Of a stretch of 64,000 nucleotides of DNA, positions 28,727-41,271 are shown in pieces (position 1 is the stretch's first letter; the number at the start of each line of letters is the position of its first letter). Source of the stretch: Ensifer sp. LC163 (GTDB taxonomy: Bacteria > Pseudomonadota > Alphaproteobacteria > Rhizobiales > Rhizobiaceae); the NCBI RefSeq assembly GCF_001695855.1, contig NZ_MBSS01000009.1, forward strand, positions 1 to 64,000, read 5' to 3'. A program made the position numbers and the translations under genes. The notes below the pieces were generated by a model. It saw nothing but the letters and a program-made list of their open reading frames with translations, was not told where the DNA came from and did no database searches.

Positions 28727-29305
28727 GTGAGCGAACACGACACTTCAAGCGAGACCTTGGGCGAGCCCACTCGCCGCGATTTCCTTTATCTGGCCACGGG
28801 CATGGCGGGCGTCGTTGGCGCCGGCGCGGTGGCCTGGCCCTTCATCGACCAGATGCGTCCGGATGCTTCGACGCTCGCGCTCGCCTCGATCGAGGTCGAC
28901 GTATCGAGCCTGCAGCCCGGCATGTCGCTGACGGCCAAATGGCGCGGCAAGCCGATCTTCATCCGCAACCGCACCGAGAAGGAAGTGGAAGAGGCCAAGG
29001 CGGTCACTCTTGCCGACCTCAAGGATCCGGTTGCGCGCAACGCCAACCTTCCGACCGACGCCGAGGCGAACGATCTCGATCGCTCCGCCGGCGAAGGCAA
29101 GGAAAACTGGATCGTGATGATCGGCTCCTGCACCCATCTCGGTTGCGTGCCGCTTGGTCAGGCCGGTGATTTCGGTGGCTGGTTCTGTCCCTGCCACGGT
29201 TCGCACTACGATACGGCCGGCCGAATCCGTAAAGGTCCGGCGCCGGAAAACCTCCCCGTGCCGACCTTCGCGTTCGTTTCCGACACAGTTATCAAGATCG
29301 GTTGA
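28727..29305 (+). CDS. petA: Ubiquinol-cytochrome c reductase Rieske iron-sulfur subunit
   Basis: 192 residues from GTG 28727, with GAGAGGA ten bases upstream. The N-terminus has a twin-arginine motif ([11 protein letters not shown]) and one membrane anchor ([19 protein letters not shown]). The [2Fe-2S] ligands lie in CTHLGC and CPCHGSHYD, both intact. It carries electrons from ubiquinol to cytochrome c1 in the bc1 complex. Also called fbcF in rhizobia. First of a three-gene operon, 14 bp before petB. Confidence 0.97.
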
Positions 29306-29319
29306 GGGGACTACTGATA

Positions 29320-30642
29320 ATGAGTGCTGAACATTCAACCTACACGCCAACGACTGGCATTGAGAAATGGGTTGATTCCCGTCTTCCGCTGCCGCGCATG
29401 ATTCACGACAGCTTCATCAGCTATCCGGTTCCCCGGAACCTGAACTATGCCTACACCTTTGGCGCCATGTTGTCAGTGATGCTGGTCGTCCAGATCCTGA
29501 CCGGTGTCGTGCTTGCGATGCATTATGCGGCTGAAGCGACCGTTGCGTTCAACTCGGTCGAAAAGATCATGCGCGACGTCAACCACGGTTGGCTTCTGCG
29601 CTACATGCACGCCAACGGCGCATCGTTCTTCTTCATCGCCGTCTACCTGCACATTGCCCGCGGCCTTTACTACGGCTCGTACAAGGCACCGCGCGAAATC
29701 CTCTGGATCCTTGGCGTGGTCATCTACCTCCTGATGATGGCGACCGGCTTCATGGGCTACGTTCTGCCCTGGGGTCAGATGTCTTTCTGGGGTGCGACCG
29801 TTATCACCGGCTTCTTCACGGCCTTTCCGTTGGTAGGCGAGTGGATCCAGCAGTTCCTGCTTGGCGGCTTTGCCGTCGACCAGCCGACGCTGAACCGCTT
29901 CTTCTCGCTGCACTACCTGCTGCCCTTCATGATTGCCGGCGTCGTCGTGCTTCACGTCTGGGCTTTGCACGTGACCGGCCAGACGAACCCGACCGGCGTC
30001 GAAGTGAAGTCAAAGACCGATACCGTTCCCTTCACGCCCTACGCGACGCTGAAGGATGCACTCGGCGTCTCCGTCTTCCTGCTCGTTTACGCCTGGTTCG
30101 TCTTCTACATGCCGAACTTCCTTGGCCACCCGGACAACTACATTCCGGCTGACGCGCTGAAGACGCCTGCTCACATTGTTCCGGAATGGTACTACCTGCC
30201 GTTCTACGCGATGCTGCGCGCCATCACCTTCAATGTCGGCCCGATCGACTCCAAGCTCGGCGGCGTTCTGGTGATGTTCGGTTCGATCATCATCCTGTTC
30301 TTCCTGCCCTGGCTCGATACGTCCAAGGTTCGCTCGGCTGTCTACCGTCCCTGGTACAAGCTGTTCTTTTGGATCTTCGTCGTCAACGCCATCATGCTCG
30401 GCTGGCTCGGCTCGCGCCCGGCGGAAGGCAGTGGTCTGTTTGGCCTGATCTTTGGCGGTGACCTCAAGGGCAACTATGTGGGTTACTCCCAGCTCGGCAC
30501 GCTGTACTACTTCGGCTTCTTCCTCGTCATCATGCCGGTTCTCGGCCTGATCGAGACGCCCAAGCGCATTCCGAACTCCATCACCGAAGCGGTGCTGGAG
30601 AAGAAGAATGCGAAGGCTCAGCCGGCCGCCGCACGCGCCTGA
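29320..30642 (+). CDS. petB: Cytochrome b subunit of the bc1 complex
   Basis: 440 residues from ATG 29320, with GAGGGG upstream. Eight or nine membrane helices. The four haem histidines are in [19 protein letters not shown] and [20 protein letters not shown], and the quinol-site PEW motif is [11 protein letters not shown]. It oxidises ubiquinol at Qo and reduces quinone at Qi. It is a full-length cytochrome b, not the split b6/subunit IV type. Middle gene of fbcFBC, 32 bp before petC. Confidence 0.97.
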
Positions 30643-30674
30643 TCAGAACAGCGATTGATAAGGAACCCACAACA

Positions 30675-31544
30675 ATGAAAAAGCTTGTAACAGGCATTCT
30701 GTCACTTGCTGTCGTCGCTGGCCTCGGTCTCGGAGCTGCTGTCGCTGAAGAGGCGGCAGGTGGCGAGGAGCATGGCGGCGGCACGCCCCACTATCCGATC
30801 CACAAGCCGGAACAGCAGGACTGGTCGTTTGCCGGCCCGTTCGGGACCTACGACAAGGGCCAGCTGCAGCGCGGCCTGAAGGTCTACACCGAAGTCTGTT
30901 CGGCCTGCCACTCGATGAACCTGGTGGCATTCCGTACACTTGATGGCCTTGGCTATTCCGACGCCCAGGTGAAGGCTTTTGCAGCCAACTATGAAGTGCA
31001 GGATGGTCCGAACGCCGACGGCGAAATGTATACCCGCAAGGCCGTGCCTTCGGATCACTTCCCGTCGCCGTACCCGAACAAGGAAGCAGCCGCTGCTTCG
31101 AACAACGGGGCTGCACCGCCGGACTTCTCGCTGATCGCCAAGGCACGCGGCATCGAGCGCGGCTTCCCGCAGTTCGTCTTCGATATGTTCTGGCCCTACC
31201 AGGAAGGTGGCCCGGACTATATCCACGCGCTTTTGACCGGCTATCACGAGCCGCCGGAAGGCGTTCAGGTCGCCGAAGGCACGCACTACAACCCTTACTT
31301 CGCCAGCGCGTCGGCGCTCGCGATGGCCCAGCCGATCGCCAACGACCAGGTCACCTACGACGACGGTGCGCCGCAGACGGTCGATCAGTACGCCAAGGAC
31401 GTCTCGGCCTTCCTGATGTGGGCTGCCGAGCCGCACCTGGAAGATCGCAAGCGCACCGGCTTCATGGTCATGGTGTTCCTGCTGATCTTTACCGGTCTCA
31501 TCTATCTGACCAAGAAGTCGGTTTACGCCAACAAGGAACATTGA
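30675..31544 (+). CDS. petC: Cytochrome c1 subunit of the bc1 complex
   Basis: 289 residues. A Sec signal (KKLVTGILSLAVVAGLGLGAAVA) is followed by the c-type haem site CSACH near residue 75, a conserved region PNKEAAAASNNGAAPPDFSL, and a C-terminal membrane anchor (FMVMVFLLIFTGLIYLTKK). In rhizobia and Bradyrhizobium cytochrome b and c1 may come from one fused gene fbcH; here they are separate. Last gene of the operon and closed by a strong terminator. Confidence 0.96.
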   Translation: MKKLVTGILSLAVVAGLGLGAAVAEEAAGGEEHGGGTPHYPIHKPEQQDWSFAGPFGTYDKGQLQRGLKVYTEVCSACHSMNLVAFRTLDGLGYSDAQVKAFAANYEVQDGPNADGEMYTRKAVPSDHFPSPYPNKEAAAASNNGAAPPDFSLIAKARGIERGFPQFVFDMFWPYQEGGPDYIHALLTGYHEPPEGVQVAEGTHYNPYFASASALAMAQPIANDQVTYDDGAPQTVDQYAKDVSAFLMWAAEPHLEDRKRTGFMVMVFLLIFTGLIYLTKKSVYANKEH

Positions 31545-31612: not shown

Positions 31613-32734
31613 GTTTGCGCGGTGCTGTTCTCGTTCGGAGACCCGAAACGTGTGCAAGGTCGATCCGCACGGGCAGGGAGACATGCCGGTTGCAGCGTCA
31701 AATGCACGGTGCGGCCTGTCCGGGGCTTGGTGCCGTACTGCATGGTGCCACGGCACAAGAAGCCCATGTGCGAACGCCGCCCGAAATCAACGCCGTCAGA
31801 AACACGTGCTGGCGAAAGATAACGGTGCAGCCGGTGGTAGCTCGCATGTCGCACATTCCCCCCGTGGAGCAAACAGCCAGGCTTGCGATATTGGGCTAAC
31901 GGCGGGCACACGCTGTGCGTTCGACAGTTCCGGGCGGATGTGGCGCTGGGCGCGGATGTGTCCCGGTGCGAAACCGGGCACGGTGCCAAACAGGACGCCT
32001 ACTCGATCCGGGTGGCACGGCATGGTTACGGCCTTCTGGTCGGCATCCGCTGCGAGTTTGATGTTGCTGAGACGAGCGGGCTTTCTGCATCTCATACGAA
32101 CTGCGTCTTCCTCCATTAGTGGGAGGAGTCGTGGTGCAGGCTTTCTCCGACACCTCGGCCAGGTGCCACCAACTCGGCTGCAGGTCGCATTTGTGGCCAA
32201 TCACTTCGCCCAACCACCAGCCATAAATGGGCCATCCGGTGCGACGCTCTATAATCTCGGTGCGGGTGAAACGGTGCCCGCGGTCAAGCGGTATGGCAGT
32301 TGCGCAAAGCGTCGCCATCATCTGGCAGAGTCGGAGTAGATCGCAATGGACGCCAGAATAGGATTGGTTGCCGTTCTTCGGGCTTCAAGCGAAGGCATTG
32401 GCGACGGCAACGCCTCATTGAGATGAACGGAGGACCCGCAGGCGCGCGCGCTGGCACCACGCGGCAGGGCACAGGATTGCGTTCTTCTTGCGCACACAGG
32501 CGTCAGTGGCGCCACCGCAACCCATTGGTTTGGGCAGTTGGTTGGAGGCAGCAGCCGGTAAGGTAGCGAAGGGCAATCGGTCCGGTGGTGTGGTGACCAG
32601 ATAACATGTGGTATCTGGATAAGATAAGGCGCCCGCAATAGAATACGGAACATCTTGCTGCCGATGCCAAAGGTTTCGCTGCTCCCAAATGGACGTCGGC
32701 TCGGCGTTTGCTTGCGTTGCGACCGGCACATGCG
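31613..32734. other. 1.1-kb stretch with no recognisable gene
   Basis: Between the bc1 terminator and the terminator of the giant gene no frame looks like a conserved protein. The longest frames are on both strands and overlap each other: + strand 31611-32339, and - strand 31896-32321 with a possible start MMATLCATAIPLDRGHRF. They lack ribosome binding sites, are rich in Arg, Cys, Trp and Pro, and show mixed third-base usage. The DNA is visibly less GC-rich than the genes on either side, especially near 32590-32660. It may be decayed foreign DNA or a deleted gene. The - strand frame 31896-32321 is the only one with protein-like composition (residues 1-70). Confidence 0.6.
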
Positions 32735-32763
32735 AAAACGGCCCCACCGTGCGGTGGGGCCGT
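32735..32763 (-). terminator. Intrinsic terminator of the giant gpr-like gene
   Basis: ACGGCCCCACCG (32738-32749) and CGGTGGGGCCGT (32752-32763) form a perfect 12-bp stem with a two-base loop. On the - strand it ends in TTTTCG and lies 28 bp after the stop at 32792. Confidence 0.9.
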
Positions 32764-32791
32764 TGCAGTTCTGGCTGTTGCCAAGGCTTGT

Positions 32792-35700
32792 TTAGTTGAA
32801 GCGGCCGGCGGCGTGGGCGAGCATCGTGTAGACCTTGCCCGTGTCGGACGTGAGGTAGGTCTGGGTGATGCGCTTGTCCGGGTCGTTGCGCGCGACATCG
32901 GCCAGCAGCTTTTCGAAATCGGCGATGTAGCGGTCGACGGCGGTGCGGAACTCCGGCTCCCGGTCGTACTTGCGCTTGATCTCGTCGAAGGTCTGCTGGC
33001 CCTTCAGCGTGTAGAGCCGGCGGGTGAAGACGTCGCGCTCGCCGCGCTGGTAGCGGCGCCACAGATCGACCGAGGCGTCATGATCGATGGCGCGGGCGAT
33101 ATCGACCGAAAGCGAATTCAGCGATTCCACCACGTGGCGCGGGTTGCGGGTATCGCCGGTGCGGGTCGCCGGCTGGCTTTCAGCCGGGCGCTGCGGCGCG
33201 GTTGTCGGAGCCTCTTCGCGCGAGGCTGCCCGCAGCAGGTCGCGCATCCAGCCACCGCCTTCTGCGACCTCGCTGGTGACGGCCTGGCTTGCAGGCTGCG
33301 CACGGGCAGGCTGGACGGGAGCAGGCTGCTGAACGGTTGCCTGTTCGATGCCAAGGCTGCCGCGCAGTGTGGGCGCCGGATCCTGGCGACGCGGTTCTGC
33401 GACCGGCTGCTGGGCCGGACGGGCGACGGGCGCTGCAGCCACAGGGACGGCTGCGACCGGCTGCTGGCGCAGCGGCTGTGCGACTTCGAGCTGCGTCGAG
33501 GACTTGCCGATGATTTCCGACAGCTCCTGCAGGGCCTTGATCTGCTCGGCCACGGCACGACGCATGACGGCGGCGTTTTCCTTGGCTTCCTCCGGCAGGT
33601 CGAAGGCGCTGCGCTTCAGCTCTTCGCGGGTCATGTCGAGTTCCTTGCGGATCTCTCCTGCCGAGCGGCGGATATCGTCGGTCGCACCGCTGAAGCGTCC
33701 GATGGCCTCGTCGATCGCCACGCGAACGGCGTCGCGAAGCTGAGCTGCCACGCCGTCCGACTTCTTGCCGCTCTCGTTGAGCATGCGCTCGACATCGGAG
33801 ACCGACGAGGCGACGCTGCCGCGCAGGCGGGACGTCACTTCCTTGGAGCGTTCTTCGGCGTTTGCGAAGGCACCCTCGATCGCGGAGCCGGCATCTTCAC
33901 CAACCTTGGCGATCGCCTGGCGGAGTGCTTCGGAGGCGCCGAGCGCGCGGCCTTCGACCGCCGAGAGCGTCTTGTTGACGTCGGCAAACGAGGTCTCGAC
34001 GCCGGAGCGCAGCGTATCGGCAATCTGGCGCGACCGCTCTTCGGCACGCGAGAAGACCGTCTCAACCGAGGCACCAGCTTCGTCACCGGCCTGAGCCAGC
34101 GCATTGCGCATGGATTCGGCCGCTTCGGCTGCACGCTGCTCGGTGCTCGACAGCAGGCGGCCGACATCCGAGAAGGATTGCTGGATGCCGCTGCGCAGGT
34201 TGCCGGCAACGAGGCCGGAGCGCTCTTCGGCGCGCTGGAAGGCGCCATCGACGAAGCCTTCGAGTGCACGCATGGTGCGTTCGATTTCTTCCGAGCGCTG
34301 GACGAGGCCGACGGACAGGGTGCGCAAGGCATCCTGGCGTTCCTCGAGCGTGCTGACGAGGTTCGACTGGGCGGCCCCCAGCAGGTCTGAGGCCTGGCCG
34401 AGCACCTTGGAGTGATCCTCGAAGCGCCCGACGATGCCGCCGATCTGCGACAGTGTGGAGGCGGAGATGTCCGAAAGCTTGTCGACCTTTCCTTCGATGA
34501 GGCGTGTGGAGGTCGACAACATGTCGGAGGCCTGGCGCGTGGTTTCGGAGAAGCGGGTGGCCGTAGCCTCGAGCCGCTGATCCATGTCGCCAAGGTTGTC
34601 GCTTGCCTGGTCGATGACGGTTGCGATCGCCGTGTTGTTGGCGGCGAGCTGGTCGATCAGGCCAAGGGCTGTCGACTGCAGACGGTTCTCGACCATCTTC
34701 ATCGCCTTTGCCGTTTCTTCAGCCCGCAGCGAGATGGCGTTGAGCGTCTCGCCGGTGCGTTCGGTAATGGCATTGACCAATGCGGTATTTTCCGCGCGCA
34801 GGCGATCGGTGCTGTCCTGCGTCAGGCTGGCGATGCGCTCAGCAGCCTCGCGGCCGGTTGCAGCATATTGATCGATGACCGGGCGTGCCTGCTCATCGAT
34901 GATGCGCGACAGCTCCATCGAGCGGCCGGCGAGCATCGAGTTGAGTTCGCGGGTCCGGTCGTCGAGCGTGCTGCGGATCGCCTCGCTTCGCGCTTCCAGG
35001 GCCTTCTCGGCATCGGCAAGACCCTGCTGGATGTTCTGGGCATGGCTGGCGACCTGGCCGTGCGTAGCGGCAAGGCGTGCGGTGGCGGTGTCGGATGCGT
35101 CGGCGACCGAGCGTGCGAGTTCGGCGTGGCGTGCCGCCGTTGCCGAGGCGGTCTGCTCGATGGCATTTGCGAAGTCGGAGTTGCGTGCCGCCAGTACATT
35201 GGCGAAATCCTGGCCGGCCTTGGAAAGAAGACCAGCGGAACGGGCCGCTTCCGTGTCGAGTTCCTGTGCTGCCTCGCTGACCGCGCTGCGAAGGGTGGTG
35301 ACGAGACCGGCGGCCTTGCCCTCGATGCGGGTGGCTTCGGCGTCGAGTTCCTGGGCAACATCGCCGACGGCACCGCGCAGGTTGCTGACGAGGTCCGCAG
35401 TCTTGCCCTCGATGCGGCCGGCTTCGGCGTCGATCTCCTGCGTGACTTCGCTGACGGCGCCGCGCAGGCTGGTGACGAGATCCGCAGTCTTGCCCTCGAT
35501 GCGGCCGGCTTCGGCGTCAATCTCCTGCGTGACTTCGCTGACGGCGCCGCGCAGGCTGGTGACGAGATCCGCAGTCTTGCCCTCGATGCGGCCGGCTTCG
35601 GCGTCAATCTCCTGCGTTACTTCGCTGACGGCGCCGCGCAGGCTGGTGACAAGCACCGCGGCCTTGCCTTCGATCGTCCGGTTGACGTTTTCGAGGCCGA

Positions 35701-38700
35701 TGTTGAGGGCGCGGTCCATGGTGCCGAGACGCTCCTCGATGCGGTCCGTACCGGCATTGATGGCGCTGGAAATGCGGCTTGCGGCGGTTTCGCTGACCCG
35801 GTCAATTTCGCCCGCGCGTTCTCCGAGGCTGTCGGCAATGCGCTGGCCAGCGTTGTCGACGATAGCGTTGACGCTGCCAACGCTATCGCGGATGCGGTTC
35901 TCCAGCGAGCCGATGCTCGTTTCAAGGCGGGCGCCCGTGTCGTCGACCAGAGCGTTGACGCTGCCGACGCTACCGCGAATGCGGCCTTCGAGCGAACCGA
36001 TGCTCGTCTCGATGCGGGCGCCGGTATCGTCGACAATCGCGTTGACGCTGCCGACGCTATCGCGGATGCGGTCCTCAAGGGTACCGATGCTGGCCTCGAT
36101 GCGGAAGCTGGTGTCGTCGACGATCGAATTGACGTTGCCGACGCTGCCGCGAATGCTCTCTTCCAGAGAACCGAGCCGGTCTTCGATGCGGTTGCTCGTT
36201 TCATCGACGATGGCACCAACCTTGTCGACGCTGCCGTGCATGCGGCCTTCGAGCGAGCCCAGGCGGGTCTCGATGCGAGCCGCGGTGTCATCGACGATGG
36301 CACTGACGTTATCGACGCTGCCGCGCATACGATCTTCAAGCGAGCCAAGACGGGTCTCGACACGAGCACCCGCCGCATCGGCAATCGTGCCGACATTTTC
36401 GGCGCTGTCGCGCATGCGCTCTTCAAGTGCGCCAAGGCTCGTCTCGATGCGCAGGCTGGTGTCGTCGAGACGGTCATTAAGGCCGTTGATCGACATGTCG
36501 ACGCGGTTGGTCAGCGTATCGGCAGCCAGGCTGATCTGGCCTGCCGTTTCCGCCAGACGCTCGGCGATGTTGCCGGTGGTCGAGCGCATACGGGCTTCGA
36601 GCGTTTCGCCGCTGCGATCGATGATGCCGGCAAGTGCCGCCTGGCGCTCTTCGAGTGACATTTCGAGCATGCTGGCACTGGTGGCGAGGCTCGTGGCAAT
36701 CGACATGGACTGGTCGGACAGCATGCCTTCCAGCTGATCGCGGCCCTGGTCGACGGCGAGGTTGATGGCATTGATCCGGTCGTCAAGCGTAGCGCGGATC
36801 TGCTCGTGCGTCGAGGACAGCGTTTCGCGCAGGTGTTCGGCGCGGCCGGCGAGTGTCTGTTCGATTTCCGTCGCCTTGCCGGCGAGCGAGGCGGTCGCCT
36901 CGGTCGTGCGCGCCGTCAGCGCTTCGGCAATCTGTGCGCTTGTGGCGGTCAGAGCGTCCGAGATCTTGCCGACGCGGCCGCTGAGGTCTTCAGCGATCCG
37001 GGCGCTGGTGTTGGTGAGGGTATCGGAAATCTGGCTGACCCGGCCGCCGAGGTTCTCGGCAACGAGGGACACGCTGTCCGAAAGCTTCTGTTCGATTTCA
37101 CCGACGCGGTCCGTCATCGTCTCGGCAACGGCCGTGGCGCGGAAGGTGAGGTTGTCGGCGACGTCTTCGGCATGACGGCTCAAGGAGACCGCCATTTCGT
37201 TGGCGCGGGCCGTCATCGTCGAACTGATGTGGGCGGAGCGATCGGCAAGAACGCCGTCGAGTGCGGATGTCTGGCTCGAAAGGGTCTCTGCAATCGCCTG
37301 GCTGCGTTCCGACAGAACGCGCTCCAGCCGGTCGGCCGTTTCGCCGACCGCGCCTTCGATCGCGTCCGTTCCGGTCGAAAGCACGGTAGAGAGAGCAAGG
37401 GTGCGCTCAGACAGGGTGTTGTCGAGGCGGTGCTGGCTTGCGGCGATGGCGCTGGTGATTTCGTCGGTCGAACCGGTCAGCGTCTGCTCGATGCGGGCGT
37501 GGGCCGCGTGCAGGCCGTCGACGAACTGCGCGGTGCGGGTGTCGAGGCCCTCGGTCAGCCGCTGCTCGCTGGTCGTCAGCGCCGTTGCGAGCGCATCGGC
37601 GCGCCGGCCGAAGCCGCTCTCGATGCGATCCTGGGCCTCCGAAAGGGCACCCATCAGGCTGCTGGTCTTTTCGGACAGCACGCTGTCGATGCGGCTGTGG
37701 GCATCGCCGATCAGGTTGCTGAGATCAGACGTGCGGCTGCCGATCGTTTCCTCGATGAAGTCATGCGTCGCGCCGAGCGCGGTCGCAAGCGTCAGCGACT
37801 GATCCGAGAGAGCCGAGCCGATCTTCTCTATGCTGCTGTCGAGCGCACCGCCGATGGCATCGGACCCGCCGGATACGGTCTCGTTGATGCGGTGCAGGCT
37901 CTCCATCAGCTTGGTATCGAGCATGCTGGCGCGCTTGTCGAAGGCCGAGGCGAACTCGTGGAAGCGTTCGTCGAAGGCGGTGGCGAGCTGGCCGACGGTC
38001 GTCTGCAGCTTCTCTTCGAAGAAGCCGCCGCGCAGGTCGAGATCCATGATTGCGTCGTCGGCGCTGGAGCGCAGGCTCTGGCGGAAATGCGCGCCCTTTT
38101 CGTCGAGCGTGGCGTTGAGCGTGGCAAGCACGTCTTCAAGGCCGCCGGCAATCGCCTGCTGGCCGACGCTCAGGCTCTCGTTGAGGTCACGGGTGCGGGC
38201 AATCAGCGTTTCATTGAGCTGGCGGGCGCGCTCATTCAGAGCCGCGTTCAGCTTTTCGGTATTGGCGTCAAGCGAGGAGGCGCGGGTCTCGAACTGGCCG
38301 AGCAACTGCTCGCCGCGCTTGGTCAGCGTGTCGCTCAGCTGGTCGAGGCGGGTGTCGAATTCATTGCTGAGTCCGAGGCCGGCGGCCGTCAGGCCGGACA
38401 GGAGCGAGTCCGTGCGGTTCGACAGCATGGTGCTGATGTTCTGCAGCGCCGTATCGGACTTTTCGCTGAGAGCTGCTGCACGCGTGTCGATCAACGAGGC
38501 AAACGCCTCGCCGGAGATGGCGATGCGCGATGCGATGTCTTCGCCCGCCTGGTCGAGATCGTCCTTCAGCTTGCCGTGCGCACCGGCGATGGTCGAGCGG
38601 ATGCGCTCGGAGTGGCCGATGATGGCTTCGCGCTCAAGGCCCAGCTCCTGAACCAGCGTACGTACCCGCAGTTCGTTTTCGCTGTAGCTGCGTTCAAGTG

Positions 38701-39448
38701 CGTTGACTTCGGAGTGAACGAGCGTTTCGAGCTCGGTGGCGCGGGCAATCGTGCGCTCGATGCCCTCGTTCATCGCGGAGACTTCGCGGCGAACTGCCTG
38801 ACCGACGGTCATGACCCGGTCGGCCGCCGCAGTTTCCGGTTCGGCCAGACGTAGCGCCACTTCGGCCATGGAGCGCGCGGCGTTGCGCAGTTCCTGCGCA
38901 CGGGCGATCATGATGGCGAAGGAGAAGAAGAGCATGATGGGCAGCGTGATGCCGATGGCGACGCCGACCGCACCAGGGGTGGCGGCGAGATCGCTCAGCG
39001 TGCGGATCTGCCAGATCTGCGGGCCATAGAGCAGGTTGGCAACGCCGAGGCCGGCCACAGCCCAGACCACCGAGACGAGGGCGGCGACACGAATGGCGGC
39101 GCGGTTCGAGCGAACGTCCAGAGCGCGCAACATTGCCGCCGGAGAGCGGCGGCCGTCGTCGTTTGCCGGAGAAAGGGGAGGCGACTTCGGTGCGGGTTCC
39201 GGAGCGAGCCCGCGTGCAGCGTCGTTGGCTCGCGCGGCGCGGGGGGCTTCCTGCTGAGGCTTTGTATTTCGACTGTGATCGGGCGCAGCAGCCTGATTGG
39301 TGGAGTCAGACACATTTTCCTCCGGATCATCCAAGGAAGTCTTGTCGTTAGGGCTCGACTTAAGCTCGTCAAAATCGATCTTAAGGGCCGCTTCCAGAGC
39401 CTGGAAGGCCTTTTCATCAATCGACTCGTTGCTCTTCTTCGTCGCCAT
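32792..39448 (-). CDS. Giant membrane-anchored helical growth-pole-ring protein (GPR/RgsE-like)
   Basis: 2218 residues from ATG 39448 (GAGG about 10 bases upstream; an ATG at 39463 would add five residues). Layout: charged, Pro/Asp-rich cytoplasmic segment (1-117), two membrane helices (~118-142 and ~158-183), then about 1700 residues of helical, Ala/Leu/Glu/Arg-rich repeats of the apolipoprotein type, a Gln/Pro/Ala-rich linker (~2000-2110) and a compact C-terminal domain (VESLNSLSVDIARAIDHDAS, ending AHAAGRFN). Residues ~1000-1202 and ~1263-1378 are regular 29-residue repeats. This size and architecture match GPR of Agrobacterium and RgsE of Sinorhizobium, which form a ring at the growing pole and are needed for unipolar growth. 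No enzymatic motif is seen. Identity rests on architecture, not on alignment. Confidence 0.83.
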   Translation of the reverse strand: MATKKSNESIDEKAFQALEAALKIDFDELKSSPNDKTSLDDPEENVSDSTNQAAAPDHSRNTKPQQEAPRAARANDAARGLAPEPAPKSPPLSPANDDGRRSPAAMLRALDVRSNRAAIRVAALVSVVWAVAGLGVANLLYGPQIWQIRTLSDLAATPGAVGVAIGITLPIMLFFSFAIMIARAQELRNAARSMAEVALRLAEPETAAADRVMTVGQAVRREVSAMNEGIERTIARATELETLVHSEVNALERSYSENELRVRTLVQELGLEREAIIGHSERIRSTIAGAHGKLKDDLDQAGEDIASRIAISGEAFASLIDTRAAALSEKSDTALQNISTMLSNRTDSLLSGLTAAGLGLSNEFDTRLDQLSDTLTKRGEQLLGQFETRASSLDANTEKLNAALNERARQLNETLIARTRDLNESLSVGQQAIAGGLEDVLATLNATLDEKGAHFRQSLRSSADDAIMDLDLRGGFFEEKLQTTVGQLATAFDERFHEFASAFDKRASMLDTKLMESLHRINETVSGGSDAIGGALDSSIEKIGSALSDQSLTLATALGATHDFIEETIGSRTSDLSNLIGDAHSRIDSVLSEKTSSLMGALSEAQDRIESGFGRRADALATALTTSEQRLTEGLDTRTAQFVDGLHAAHARIEQTLTGSTDEITSAIAASQHRLDNTLSERTLALSTVLSTGTDAIEGAVGETADRLERVLSERSQAIAETLSSQTSALDGVLADRSAHISSTMTARANEMAVSLSRHAEDVADNLTFRATAVAETMTDRVGEIEQKLSDSVSLVAENLGGRVSQISDTLTNTSARIAEDLSGRVGKISDALTATSAQIAEALTARTTEATASLAGKATEIEQTLAGRAEHLRETLSSTHEQIRATLDDRINAINLAVDQGRDQLEGMLSDQSMSIATSLATSASMLEMSLEERQAALAGIIDRSGETLEARMRSTTGNIAERLAETAGQISLAADTLTNRVDMSINGLNDRLDDTSLRIETSLGALEERMRDSAENVGTIADAAGARVETRLGSLEDRMRGSVDNVSAIVDDTAARIETRLGSLEGRMHGSVDKVGAIVDETSNRIEDRLGSLEESIRGSVGNVNSIVDDTSFRIEASIGTLEDRIRDSVGSVNAIVDDTGARIETSIGSLEGRIRGSVGSVNALVDDTGARLETSIGSLENRIRDSVGSVNAIVDNAGQRIADSLGERAGEIDRVSETAASRISSAINAGTDRIEERLGTMDRALNIGLENVNRTIEGKAAVLVTSLRGAVSEVTQEIDAEAGRIEGKTADLVTSLRGAVSEVTQEIDAEAGRIEGKTADLVTSLRGAVSEVTQEIDAEAGRIEGKTADLVSNLRGAVGDVAQELDAEATRIEGKAAGLVTTLRSAVSEAAQELDTEAARSAGLLSKAGQDFANVLAARNSDFANAIEQTASATAARHAELARSVADASDTATARLAATHGQVASHAQNIQQGLADAEKALEARSEAIRSTLDDRTRELNSMLAGRSMELSRIIDEQARPVIDQYAATGREAAERIASLTQDSTDRLRAENTALVNAITERTGETLNAISLRAEETAKAMKMVENRLQSTALGLIDQLAANNTAIATVIDQASDNLGDMDQRLEATATRFSETTRQASDMLSTSTRLIEGKVDKLSDISASTLSQIGGIVGRFEDHSKVLGQASDLLGAAQSNLVSTLEERQDALRTLSVGLVQRSEEIERTMRALEGFVDGAFQRAEERSGLVAGNLRSGIQQSFSDVGRLLSSTEQRAAEAAESMRNALAQAGDEAGASVETVFSRAEERSRQIADTLRSGVETSFADVNKTLSAVEGRALGASEALRQAIAKVGEDAGSAIEGAFANAEERSKEVTSRLRGSVASSVSDVERMLNESGKKSDGVAAQLRDAVRVAIDEAIGRFSGATDDIRRSAGEIRKELDMTREELKRSAFDLPEEAKENAAVMRRAVAEQIKALQELSEIIGKSSTQLEVAQPLRQQPVAAVPVAAAPVARPAQQPVAEPRRQDPAPTLRGSLGIEQATVQQPAPVQPARAQPASQAVTSEVAEGGGWMRDLLRAASREEAPTTAPQRPAESQPATRTGDTRNPRHVVESLNSLSVDIARAIDHDASVDLWRRYQRGERDVFTRRLYTLKGQQTFDEIKRKYDREPEFRTAVDRYIADFEKLLADVARNDPDKRITQTYLTSDTGKVYTMLAHAAGRFN
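35314..35661 (-). repeat. Four tandem 87-bp repeats inside the gpr-like gene
   Basis: Units begin at 35314, 35401, 35488 and 35575, each 87 bp, encoding 29 residues around LVTSLRGAVSEVTQEIDAEA and GRIEGKTAD. The second and third units differ at a single base and the fourth at a few, while the first is more diverged. Near-identity at DNA level points to recent duplication or gene conversion. Confidence 0.93.
35843..36451 (-). repeat. Seven tandem 29-residue repeats inside the gpr-like gene
   Basis: Seven exact 87-bp periods (609 bp) encode a pattern R-[IVL]-E-x2-[IL]-G-[SAT]-L-E followed by -R-[MI]-R-x-S-V-x2-V-x-[AS]-[IL]-V-D. Unlike the other block, units are diverged at DNA level but conserved in period and key positions. 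The same 29-residue period is used in both blocks with different consensus sequences. Confidence 0.9.
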
Positions 39449-40056
39449 AGGGATACGCCTCATTACCTATTGCTTCCGATGAAACGTGTCCTTTTAATCC
39501 GCAACTGCGGCCAGGCACTGTCTTTATCGGGGCGGTGACGGCAAGATACGCGCATCACATCTACGCAATACCCTACTGAACACCCACTGCATTTCCTCGA
39601 TGGATAGTCGGAATTGACCCTCGAGGGCACCACTCGCACAGCTTATCCACCGGAACGGTTGCCATTTTCGTACGCAAGCCCGTTCCTAACCGTATCGTAG
39701 TGACACATTAGCCAGGTTCTTACAATTAAGAGCACTGCGGCTTCATTAAAATCCTAATGAATTCTTAATGCGATAGAGGGGCTTATGGCGGAAAAGACAA
39801 GGAAATCAGGAGGTTTAACGGGCGTTAACCATTTTCCCAGTTTCCTGCCTATATTGCGCCCCGTTTTAAGCCGATAGCAGCGCCCGCCCGTGGAGGATGA
39901 TAGCTGCACACGCCGTAGCGATCGTCCGGAGACGATGCTTGGTGAGCAGGCGTCGTCAGTCACGGCGTCCGTGCCGCCCATGGCAATCGGACCGCGAATG
40001 ACGCGGACGGCATCGGACAATGACCAACACCATACGAACAATAGGGAAATTGGCTC
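39449..40056. promoter_or_regulatory. Divergent regulatory region with CtrA-like half-site pair
   Basis: This 608-bp gap separates the giant gene from the divergent HPt gene. TTAA-CGGGCG-TTAACC at 39815-39830 resembles a CtrA site (two TTAA half-sites, here with 6 instead of 7 bases between). Around 39720-39775 the DNA is AT-rich with repeated TTAAT/CTTAATG. No gene was recognised; open frames here on both strands are short, lack binding sites and do not resemble proteins. Confidence 0.5.
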
Positions 40057-40425
40057 ATGGCGGCCCTCAGAATTGCCTTCGAAGCTCCCGATACTCCGGG
40101 CAGTTCCTCTCCTTCCGGCAGGAAGCCCATCGATTTTGCCCATCTTGCCGCGCAGACAATGGGAGACAAGGCGCTTGAAATCGAAGTACTGCAACTTTTC
40201 GCCCGCCAGGCGCGAAAGGTGATGAAGGACATCACCGACGGCGAAGTGAACGGACGCGCCCAGGCGGCCCATCAATTGAAGGGGGCAGCACTTGCCGTCG
40301 GCGCCGTCGACGTTGCGACTGCAGCGGGCGCGATCGAGCAGCGCCCTACCGATCCGGCTTTGCCCGACGTTCTTGCAGCAAGCGTGCTTGAGGCGGAACT
40401 GTTCATCCTGAAGCTCTGCCGCTGA
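40057..40425 (+). CDS. Orphan histidine phosphotransfer (HPt) domain protein
   Basis: 122 residues, a single HPt domain. The phosphorylated histidine is in QAAHQLKGAALAVGA (H-x-L-K-G motif), preceded by LLQLF-like EVLQLFARQARKVMKDI. HPt proteins pass phosphate between hybrid histidine kinases and response regulators. No kinase or regulator gene lies next to it, so its partners are elsewhere; the CctA-type kinase gene cckA is 12 kb away. It is not ChpT-like in size or sequence. The CtrA-like site upstream hints at cell-cycle timing, without proof. Confidence 0.85.
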   Translation: MAALRIAFEAPDTPGSSSPSGRKPIDFAHLAAQTMGDKALEIEVLQLFARQARKVMKDITDGEVNGRAQAAHQLKGAALAVGAVDVATAAGAIEQRPTDPALPDVLAASVLEAELFILKLCR

Positions 40426-40444
40426 TTGCAGCTTGCCAGAAAGG

Positions 40445-40484
40445 CGCATCGCGGCCCGCGCTGAAACGCCGCGTCCGCGATGCG
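40445..40484. terminator. Stem-loop after the HPt gene
   Basis: CGCATCGCGG (40445-40454) pairs exactly with CCGCGATGCG (40475-40484) around a 20-base loop, 20 bp after the HPt stop. There is no T-run, so it is only a possible terminator or message-stabilising hairpin. Confidence 0.4.
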
Positions 40485-40571
40485 ACCGCCGGCTGTTGTT
40501 GACTGAATGGCCGAATTGTTGGAAGAACTTTCCCTGAATTCGCGCCCGCTGCTCCATGCGGCTTTGCGCTG

Positions 40572-40676
40572 CTGCATAATTCCATAAATCGGAAACGAAC
40601 TATGGACAAAATTATGCAGAAATTTGAAAGTGTTACAGCGTCCTTGGCGCGTCATATTTGACGCCCGGCGCTGTAA
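40572..40676 (+). repeat. RIME1-like palindromic element, copy C
   Basis: Outer arms CTGCATAATT / AATTATGCAG and the second palindrome TTACAGCG...CGCTGTAA are kept, but the inner arms (CCATAAATCG / CTATGG) are more degraded than in other copies. It lies directly upstream of the ferredoxin gene (35 bp) and could affect its leader. Confidence 0.8.
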
Positions 40677-40710
40677 TGGCCAGTCCCATCAGCTTATTCC
40701 GGAAAGTGAC

Positions 40711-41031
40711 ATGACAAAACTTACGATCGTTGCCTTTGATGGCACGCGCCACGAACTCGATGTCGAGAACGGCTCGACCGTCATGGAGAACGCCGTTCGC
40801 AATTCGGTTCCGGGTGTTGAAGCGGAGTGTGGCGGGGCCTGTGCCTGTGCCACCTGTCATGTCTATGTCGACGATGCCTGGACGGCCGCCGTCGGTGCTC
40901 CGGAAGCTATGGAAGAGGACATGCTGGATTTTGCCTATGACGTACGTCCGACGTCGCGGCTTTCCTGTCAGATAAAGGTCAGCGATGCCCTGGACGGGCT
41001 CGTCGTGCACGTGCCCGAACGCCAGGCGTGA
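40711..41031 (+). CDS. 2Fe-2S ferredoxin, adrenodoxin/putidaredoxin type
   Basis: 106 residues from ATG 40711, with GGAAAG six bases upstream. Cluster ligands are C-x5-C-x2-C in [16 protein letters not shown] and a fourth Cys in [11 protein letters not shown]. The acidic stretch [10 protein letters not shown] matches the partner-binding helix of vertebrate-type ferredoxins. It carries electrons to cytochromes P450, ring hydroxylases or Fe-S assembly. It stands alone; no reductase gene is adjacent, so it may be the general cellular ferredoxin. Often named fdx/fdxE in related genomes, but I leave the symbol blank. Confidence 0.9.
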
Positions 41032-41112
41032 TGGCTGACCGCGGACACCGCGCCTGTCGAGACGACGCACCTGTGCGTCTCTCGCTCTCCGTCTATGATG
41101 CCCATGTTTTGC

Positions 41113-41148
41113 AAAAAAGCGCCTCGCTGGTCGGGTGACGAGCGAGGC
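41113..41148 (-). terminator. Intrinsic terminator on the - strand without an obvious parent gene
   Basis: AGCGAGGC / GCCTCGCT form an 8-bp stem (41121-41128 with 41141-41148). On the - strand it is followed by CGCTTTTTTG. The nearest - strand gene ends at 41519, 370 bases away, which suggests a separate short transcript or a long 3' untranslated region. Confidence 0.7.
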
Positions 41149-41271
41149 TAGGAGGGCGTATCGCACGCAGATGAGGGAGGGAACATCTGCTGCATCAAGA
41201 CACGCCAGGAGAACCTGTATTGCTGCGTCGTAGAGCTTTACACTCAAGGAAACGAACCGACGCTGCTGAAT

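Follow-up and report, generated by a model that had tools for sequence, protein, structure and literature searches.

In Sinorhizobium meliloti, the protein RgsE (SMc00190, 2,089 aa) is the published homologue of GPR (PMC7327166) and, like GPR of Agrobacterium tumefaciens (Atu1348), is described as a protein of about 2100 aa exhibiting two N-terminal membrane helices, an apolipoprotein-like helical rod and a conserved C-terminus (PMC7327166, PMC8262873). The partners published for RgsE are RgsA, RgsS, and TolQ (PMC7327166), and the loss of GPR/RgsE results in deformed cells in both Agrobacterium and Sinorhizobium (PMC8262873, PMC7327166). A continuous helix of about 1700 residues and a growth-pole ring made of six foci further characterise GPR/RgsE. 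Respective to the rod, the GPR paper puts forward the apolipoprotein reading and also asks whether the helices mediate protein contacts (PMC8262873).

Outside this family, a likeness by published description exists with Scy and FilP of Streptomyces, i.e., hendecad rods of the polar-growth machinery, the rod of Scy exceeding 1000 residues and being almost wholly composed of hendecads (PMC9858780). While an undistorted helix has 3.63 residues per turn and heptads 3.5, hendecads entail only a very minor supercoil (PMC9858780). Scy and FilP nonetheless are dimers with an Ala-rich core and a DivIVA domain (PMC9858780), whereas Ala accounts for 6-10% at the centre of the apolar stripe of the GPR rod. 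Concerning length, the sensor linkers of PadC offer a second precedent, as their coiled-coil length changes keep phase and the differences are, for most PadCs, multiples of seven; these linkers are short and heptad-based (PMC9587094), whereas the GPR/RgsE rod spans about 1700 residues and its length quanta are built from 11 and 7. In the open-licence literature, no mention was found of a hendecad basis for GPR/RgsE, of phase-keeping indels in this family or of its range of unit lengths, and no paper came up on hendecads in Rhizobiales or on indels in hendecad coiled coils; the words “hendecad,” “heptad,” and “repeat” are absent from the main text of the GPR paper (PMC8262873).

The Ensifer orthologue of rgsE/gpr and its surroundings

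The window, namely the whole stretch of 64,000 nucleotides from Ensifer sp. LC163 that was analysed, harbours on its minus strand an ATG-started frame translating into 2218 aa (Table 1). From the letters alone, the original prediction had announced a protein of this length with two arrays of 29-residue period and two transmembrane helices, resembling GPR/RgsE by size and layout. Translation, Tandem Repeats Finder and protein autocorrelation agree with the first of these statements, and two runs of 19-residue windows starting at residues 116-124 and 154-167 (Kyte-Doolittle of at least 1.6) fit the second. As for the third, sequence agrees with it, the identity reaching 78% over 2080 aligned residues with the S. 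meliloti 4H41 protein, 52% with the A. albertimagni protein and 47% over 2055 residues with the A. vitis CG78 protein; the orthologues aligned were those of S. meliloti 4H41, A. vitis CG78, A. albertimagni, E. adhaerens L18, and R. phaseoli. Among the 15 other same-genus proteins, six have their last 1200 residues in common with proteins of named Ensifer records (E. adhaerens SD006 and L18, E. oleiphilus, E. sesbaniae, Ensifer sp. Root278 and LC11), which places the window in Ensifer in this sense. PF01442 matches the LC163 protein at 258 bits (cut-off 90; 5e-77) in 13 stretches, and the C-terminal domain is present in 16/16 same-genus, 244/247 same-family and 142/150 same-order genomes. On homology, the two membrane helices, PF01442 and the distribution of the C-terminal domain, the gene at 32792-39448 is, judged by sequence, the Ensifer orthologue of rgsE/gpr, found as a single match and thus in one copy in the LC163 genome, and the protein itself is already known.

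Table 1. Features of the rgsE/gpr locus of Ensifer sp. LC163, with positions in the window.
Feature	Position	Strand	Basis
RgsE/GPR orthologue, 2218 aa	32792..39448	-	translation, 78% identity to S. meliloti 4H41 protein
Membrane helix 1, about residues 116-142	39023..39103	-	hydropathy
Membrane helix 2, about residues 154-185	38894..38989	-	hydropathy
Helical rod, residues 220-1982, 2 prolines, no cysteine, period 3.66	33503..38791	-	hydrophobic period
Hendecad (11/22-residue) rod part, residues 240-1000	36449..38731	-	autocorrelation, period 3.664
Block A, seven clear 29-residue units, residues 1005-1207	35828..36436	-	tandem-repeat and consensus scans
Inter-block stretch, residues 1208-1262, conserved island from about 1233	35663..35827	-	alignment, outgroup scan
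Block B, five 29-residue units, residues 1263-1407	35228..35662	-	tandem-repeat and consensus scans, alignment
62-residue repeat (5x11+7), residues 1719-1892	33773..34294	-	autocorrelation
Pro-rich linker after rod, small indels common among relatives	33179..33502	-	pair alignments
Conserved C-terminal domain, residues 2101-2218, predicted all-helical	32795..33148	-	genome matches, AlphaFold2

The C-terminal domain is the best-conserved part of the protein in the outgroup scan. AlphaFold2 (129 residues, 41 sequences) predicts seven helices for it (pLDDT 78.7, pTM 0.72); no Pfam family passed its cut-off, and the PDB gave no usable match by profile (best E 0.14) or by fold (best E 0.37).

Convergent with the rod gene are the Rieske, cytochrome b, and cytochrome c1 genes at 28727-31541 (+), and fbcC or fbcB lies within about 6 kb of the rod gene in 21/119 relatives' loci; as such, fbc synteny is supportive in near relatives but not general. 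On the plus strand opposite the rod gene run three frames of 560, 748, and 682 aa (32708-34390, 34412-36658, and 36806-38854), which the codon pattern of such a repetitive gene may have generated as a by-product. The stretch 39757-41247 (-), upstream of the rod gene, holds two frames (267 and 204 aa) with no Pfam match at E 0.001, which may not be genes.

Helical period, repeats and charge pattern of the rod

Over residues 240-1960 of the LC163 protein, the strongest hydrophobic component (I, L, V, M, F, W, Y) has a period of 3.660 residues per turn, near that of a hendecad (11/3 = 3.667), and over residues 240-1000 the period is 3.664 with autocorrelation peaks at lags 22, 44, 66, and 11. Locally, the stripe period is 3.595 in the first rod stretch, 3.679 in the short stretch 1209-1262, and 3.579 and 3.598 in the 176-residue windows 1551-1726 and 1639-1814, respectively. 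Residues 1551-1814 (3.58-3.60) are the sole long part of the rod in which the stripe would drift to the left-handed side. By the same method, the SMC coil from the same genome, used as a control, gives 3.493. A heptad coiled coil (period 3.5) is rejected on this ground, since none of 177 family rods peaks below 3.60 and the lowest 176-residue window of LC163 stands at 3.579, in agreement with the early claim that ordinary heptads are not at hand. Taking 3.63 as reference, the drift of the stripe over the rod does not exceed about 570 degrees, with an end value near -440 and an almost flat course in the 29-residue blocks, while a heptad rod of equal length would drift 6409 degrees, all these figures depending on the assumed 3.63.

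The exact 87-bp period of the two blocks is recovered by Tandem Repeats Finder, at 35274-35681 (period 87 bp, 4.7 copies, 89% matches, score 592) and at 35855-36343 (period 87 bp, 5.6 copies, 77%, score 409), with a second row for the latter block at 35856-36451 (6.9 copies). At the protein level, a lag of 29 yields identical residues at fractions of 0.56 (residues 1001-1260) and 0.79 (residues 1261-1410), the mean of the tested lags being about 0.09. The counts of the original prediction need some amendment: its seven units of block A are seven clear ones, in a phase shifted by 15 bp from the one given, and a consensus scan counts eight, while block B comprises five units instead of four. The two units do differ in consensus, as had been said; 9/29 positions are identical in the same register (by-eye count) and the hydrophobic spacing 3-4-4-3-4-3-4-4 is common to both, on which account blocks A and B may share an origin. 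As for the reading of the unit as 11+11+7 with eight turns per 29 residues, the observed 3.627 in both blocks fits it (29/8 = 3.625), and the unit also reads as 11+7+11, i.e., eight turns, but the fit carries little weight, as 8/29 is the sole harmonic of an exact 29-residue repeat in the alpha-helix range and 3.627 thus follows from the repeat period once a helix is granted. Over 200 shuffles, the best reached about a fifth (block A) or a third (block B) of the block power. The view of the blocks as the source of near-straightness did not stand, since hendecads underlie the rod in its entirety (3.66) and the family shows several superperiods, 29 among them.

The family was considered through 200 proteins, namely 119 relatives' loci, 80 named records and the LC163 protein, of which 185 differ from one another in the last 1200 residues; the 119 loci were picked from same-genus, same-order and same-family genome searches for unbroken frames and spread, and start codons are uncurated so that total lengths are approximate. 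The 177 proteins retained for the rod are distinct over the last 1000 residues and at least 1400 residues long, except that 18 of them, which lack the rod-start motif, were excluded from pair counts and assigned a default start for the lag scan. Each of the 177 rods has a period of 3.60-3.67, with 5-95% quantiles of 3.640-3.666. Internal repeats (58-residue windows, identity of at least 0.38) occur in 175/177 rods, and, of the 68 lags between 5 and 72, a set of 18 accounts for 581/589 lag-protein pairs, each of the 18 corresponding to 3.60-3.667 residues per turn; the eight pairs out of this band come from two proteins, L122 (12, 24, 32, 52, 56) and L218 (5, 6, 68). Since the lag band was fixed after inspection of the lags in 80 proteins and relatives share ancestry, no p-value is claimed for it. 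The 29-residue period itself, which homologues had been expected to share, is present as at least two units 29 residues apart in 29/29 Ensifer/Sinorhizobium proteins, but across the order lag 29 appears in just 70/177.

A helical period of 11/22 residues is also that of apolipoprotein A-IV (PF01442). The apolar stripe of the rod, about 90 degrees wide, is as narrow as in this protein, and the argument that such a stripe would be too narrow for lipid binding was dropped on this control. Stripe width and period, together with the PF01442 match (5e-77, 13 stretches) and a further model over its cut-off, ApoLp-III (54.7 vs 36.3 bits), speak for the published hypothesis that the rod is a true apolipoprotein relative, with amphipathic helices resting on the membrane and binding or sorting lipids at the growth pole, lipid roles being proposed in the GPR paper (PMC8262873). 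However, a shared periodicity can yield a PF01442 match, a baculovirus envelope-protein model passes its cut-off too, ZorA and SpiroCoCo models match the rod below theirs, and sub-cut-off PF01442 matches occur in 7/14 control genomes. In a class A apolipoprotein helix, basic residues line both flanks of the apolar face. This charge pattern is displayed by the apoA-IV control (one segment, 232 residues; Lys/Arg 0.55-0.56 at ±90 degrees), which has prolines on its polar face, but not by the GPR rod, where Lys/Arg sit mainly on one flank (LC163, S. meliloti, and pooled rods), i.e., 0.21-0.24 at +60/+90 degrees vs 0.06-0.11 at -60/-90 degrees in pooled rods, and where 1763 residues include two prolines. 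Asp/Glu are nearer the stripe on the flank opposite Lys/Arg, yet common all over the polar face. Alike in period and stripe width, the rod is thus unlike apoA-IV in charge pattern and proline content, and a membrane-lying apolipoprotein relative appears unlikely. In the block region, PDB sequence matches to a spike HR1 mimic (E 2e-4) and to apoA-IV (5e-4) were set aside as reflecting periodicity and not homology, no stretch passing alone.

ZorA is a motor protein of the MotA/TolQ type with a long tail. Six stretches of the rod match the NCBIfam model ZorA_1 (3.4e-21, below its cut-off), the best one covering residues 1156-1284, and the score for ZorA (NF033914), 75 bits, falls short of the curated cut-off of 190. 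By analogy, and given that RgsE binds TolQ (PMC7327166), ZorA and RgsE may share a tail geometry.

Modelling of residues 986-1425 by AlphaFold2 (27 sequences; mean pLDDT 81.4, pTM 0.25) gives helices at positions 2-192 and 209-439 of the fragment (191 and 231 residues), separated by a low-confidence break at model residues 193-208, i.e., about residues 1178-1193 of the protein. This model speaks for helix but gives no firm indication on packing. Taken at face value, the break could mean that the rod folds back into antiparallel hairpins near residues 1180-1200 and forms a compact bundle instead of an extended rod, in line with the published suggestion that an apolipoprotein-like action would require GPR to fold back over its own length (PMC8262873). 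Block A and its period continue through the break site, though, block means of pLDDT are down to 46-56 there with the pTM as low as stated, and spuriously bent coiled-coil models are a named limitation of AlphaFold (PMC11676326), so that such a fold-back is regarded as rather improbable.

Length changes among relatives

Within LC163's genus, block A counts 7 or 8 units in 16 proteins, and 2 to 7 in 13 proteins of the Sinorhizobium side, a set including two records named Ensifer, namely aridi and MPMI2T. In block B, the two sides differ more sharply, and LC163 departs here from RgsE of the S. meliloti side, with 4 to 6 units in the same 16 proteins vs one in the same 13; together with the alignment, these counts suggest that block B is probably the expansion, within LC163's genus, of a single old unit. 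The block region as a whole differs between the two sides by 145-261 residues, and between the records named E. adhaerens L18 and SD006 neither block is the same. Without recourse to alignment, the anchor-to-anchor distance across the blocks departs from that of LC163 by 29k or 29k ± 11 residues in 28/28 Ensifer/Sinorhizobium proteins, these differences sharing ancestry and four of them being zero, and the values -11, +18, and -40 involving an 18-residue shift beside the right-hand anchor. From the second anchor to the C-terminus, a part that contains the linker, length shifts range from -23 to +22. The rod part preceding the blocks is of equal length in 15 same-genus proteins and 22-154 residues longer in the 13 others, where the gains of 22, 44, 66, 88, and 154 are multiples of 11, those of 106, 117, 128, 131, and 139 being too long to inform.

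In 40 disjoint close pairs (shared 5-mers > 0.45), which are not phylogenetically independent, the rod indels in the range of 5-72 residues (34/34) all have one of 15 lengths out of 68 possible, i.e., the combinations of 11 and 7 within the band, and a second gap scheme places 36/36 on allowed lengths. The lengths observed are 11, 18, 22, 29, 33, 36, 40, 44, 58, 62, and 66, with longer rod indels of 77, 88, and 106; lengths > 59 being always writable as 11a+7b, it is the shorter lengths and the residues-per-turn band that are informative. The allowed lengths were fixed after an earlier and overlapping set of 60 nearest-neighbour pairs, where the 65 rod indels of at least 5 aa are all 11a+7b and three further ones measure 2-4 aa. 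Indels of 1-4 residues number two in 66,539 columns of the rod. For every 1000 substitutions, the rod has 0.5 of these small indels (2 events), as against 24 for the N-terminal tail (12 events), 115 for the linker (61), and 29 for the C-terminal domain (1), so that the rod falls about 47-fold short of the N-terminal tail. Such a pattern suggests, at the level of sequence comparison, that evolutionary gains and losses of rod length almost always amount to whole helical turns.

With 35/40 rod indels (of at least 5 aa) showing 50% identity or more to the tandem neighbour, the mutational route is likely to have been unequal exchange. The same figure, along with the identity at the protein level of 3/5 block B units from the second residue-region onward, could be taken to mean that the phase-keeping lengths are mutational and not selected, old 11-residue and later 29-residue repeats recombining and indels being units gained or lost. 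Quantised lengths do partly follow from repeats, and recombination explains part of the length pattern; what a purely mutational origin leaves unexplained is that repeat units of 18, 29, 36, 40, 51, and 62 are all phase-neutral, as well as the about 47-fold lack of 1-4 aa indels in the rod (2 vs 12 in the N-terminal tail). As a full account it is therefore held to be improbable, and selection would have to be invoked chiefly to account for the absent small indels and for which unit lengths are used.

A rod acting as a length ruler for ring size or ring-to-pole distance, with about 260 nm if extended and thus comparable in magnitude with the 200-nm ring of the GPR paper (PMC8262873), is very improbable and was rejected, as rod length ranges from 1073 to 2868 residues (2.7-fold) in the 159 proteins measured and the block region alone varies between the two sides to the extent given above. 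With starts uncurated, whole proteins extend up to giant members of 3387, 3016, and 2887 residues (L139, L143, and L099, respectively) vs 845 in L125.

A proposed phase-keeping rod at the growth pole

With a probability of roughly two in three, the protein is best read as a membrane-anchored, parallel homo-oligomeric hendecad coiled-coil rod with little supercoil, the phase of which is kept by selection, a model in which we infer geometry, oligomeric state and ring function. Anchored by its two N-terminal membrane helices, the protein would extend as a parallel homo-oligomeric hendecad coiled coil of very little supercoil over up to about 260 nm (1763 residues at the helix rise of 0.15 nm per residue). 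Conserved islands of the rod and the C-terminal domain would dock growth-pole partners, the 29-residue blocks would serve as phase-neutral spacers resized by unequal exchange between 87-bp repeats, and selection would keep the stripe continuous in such a way that survivors are mainly insertions or deletions of whole turns. Parallel packing is suggested by the charge pattern as its sole basis, as the basic flank of one helix would meet the acidic flank of its neighbour in a parallel homo-oligomer. With 6-10% Ala at the stripe centre, the core would be one of large residues, which, following the Ala-in-core rule stated for the number of helices in hendecad coiled coils (PMC9858780), would favour more than two helices.

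The islands, obtained from a scan against a random 40 of 148 outgroup proteins, have 23-residue window starts at about 177-265, 386-408, 452-463, 1233-1244, 1486-1497, 1673-1706, 1915-1959, and from 2102. Lying between variable repeats, they are candidate docking sites. A near-straight rod combined with phase-neutral length changes would keep them on one face. More tentatively, and with the odds rather against it, this would be a giant phase-locked rod whose length is free to evolve while its azimuth is fixed, the islands on one face lining up TolQ, RgsA, and RgsS along the growth-pole membrane, and Scy representing an independent case.

Precedents in print exist for hendecad rods in polar growth (Scy, PMC9858780) and for linkers quantised in heptads (PadC, PMC9587094). 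In GPR/RgsE, the keeping of phase over some 1700 residues despite a 2.7-fold range in length argues for a continuous packed stripe. As such, the family constitutes a natural data set on near-straight coiled coils with clean in-phase and out-of-phase tests, and the same phase rule could be sought in Scy and FilP.
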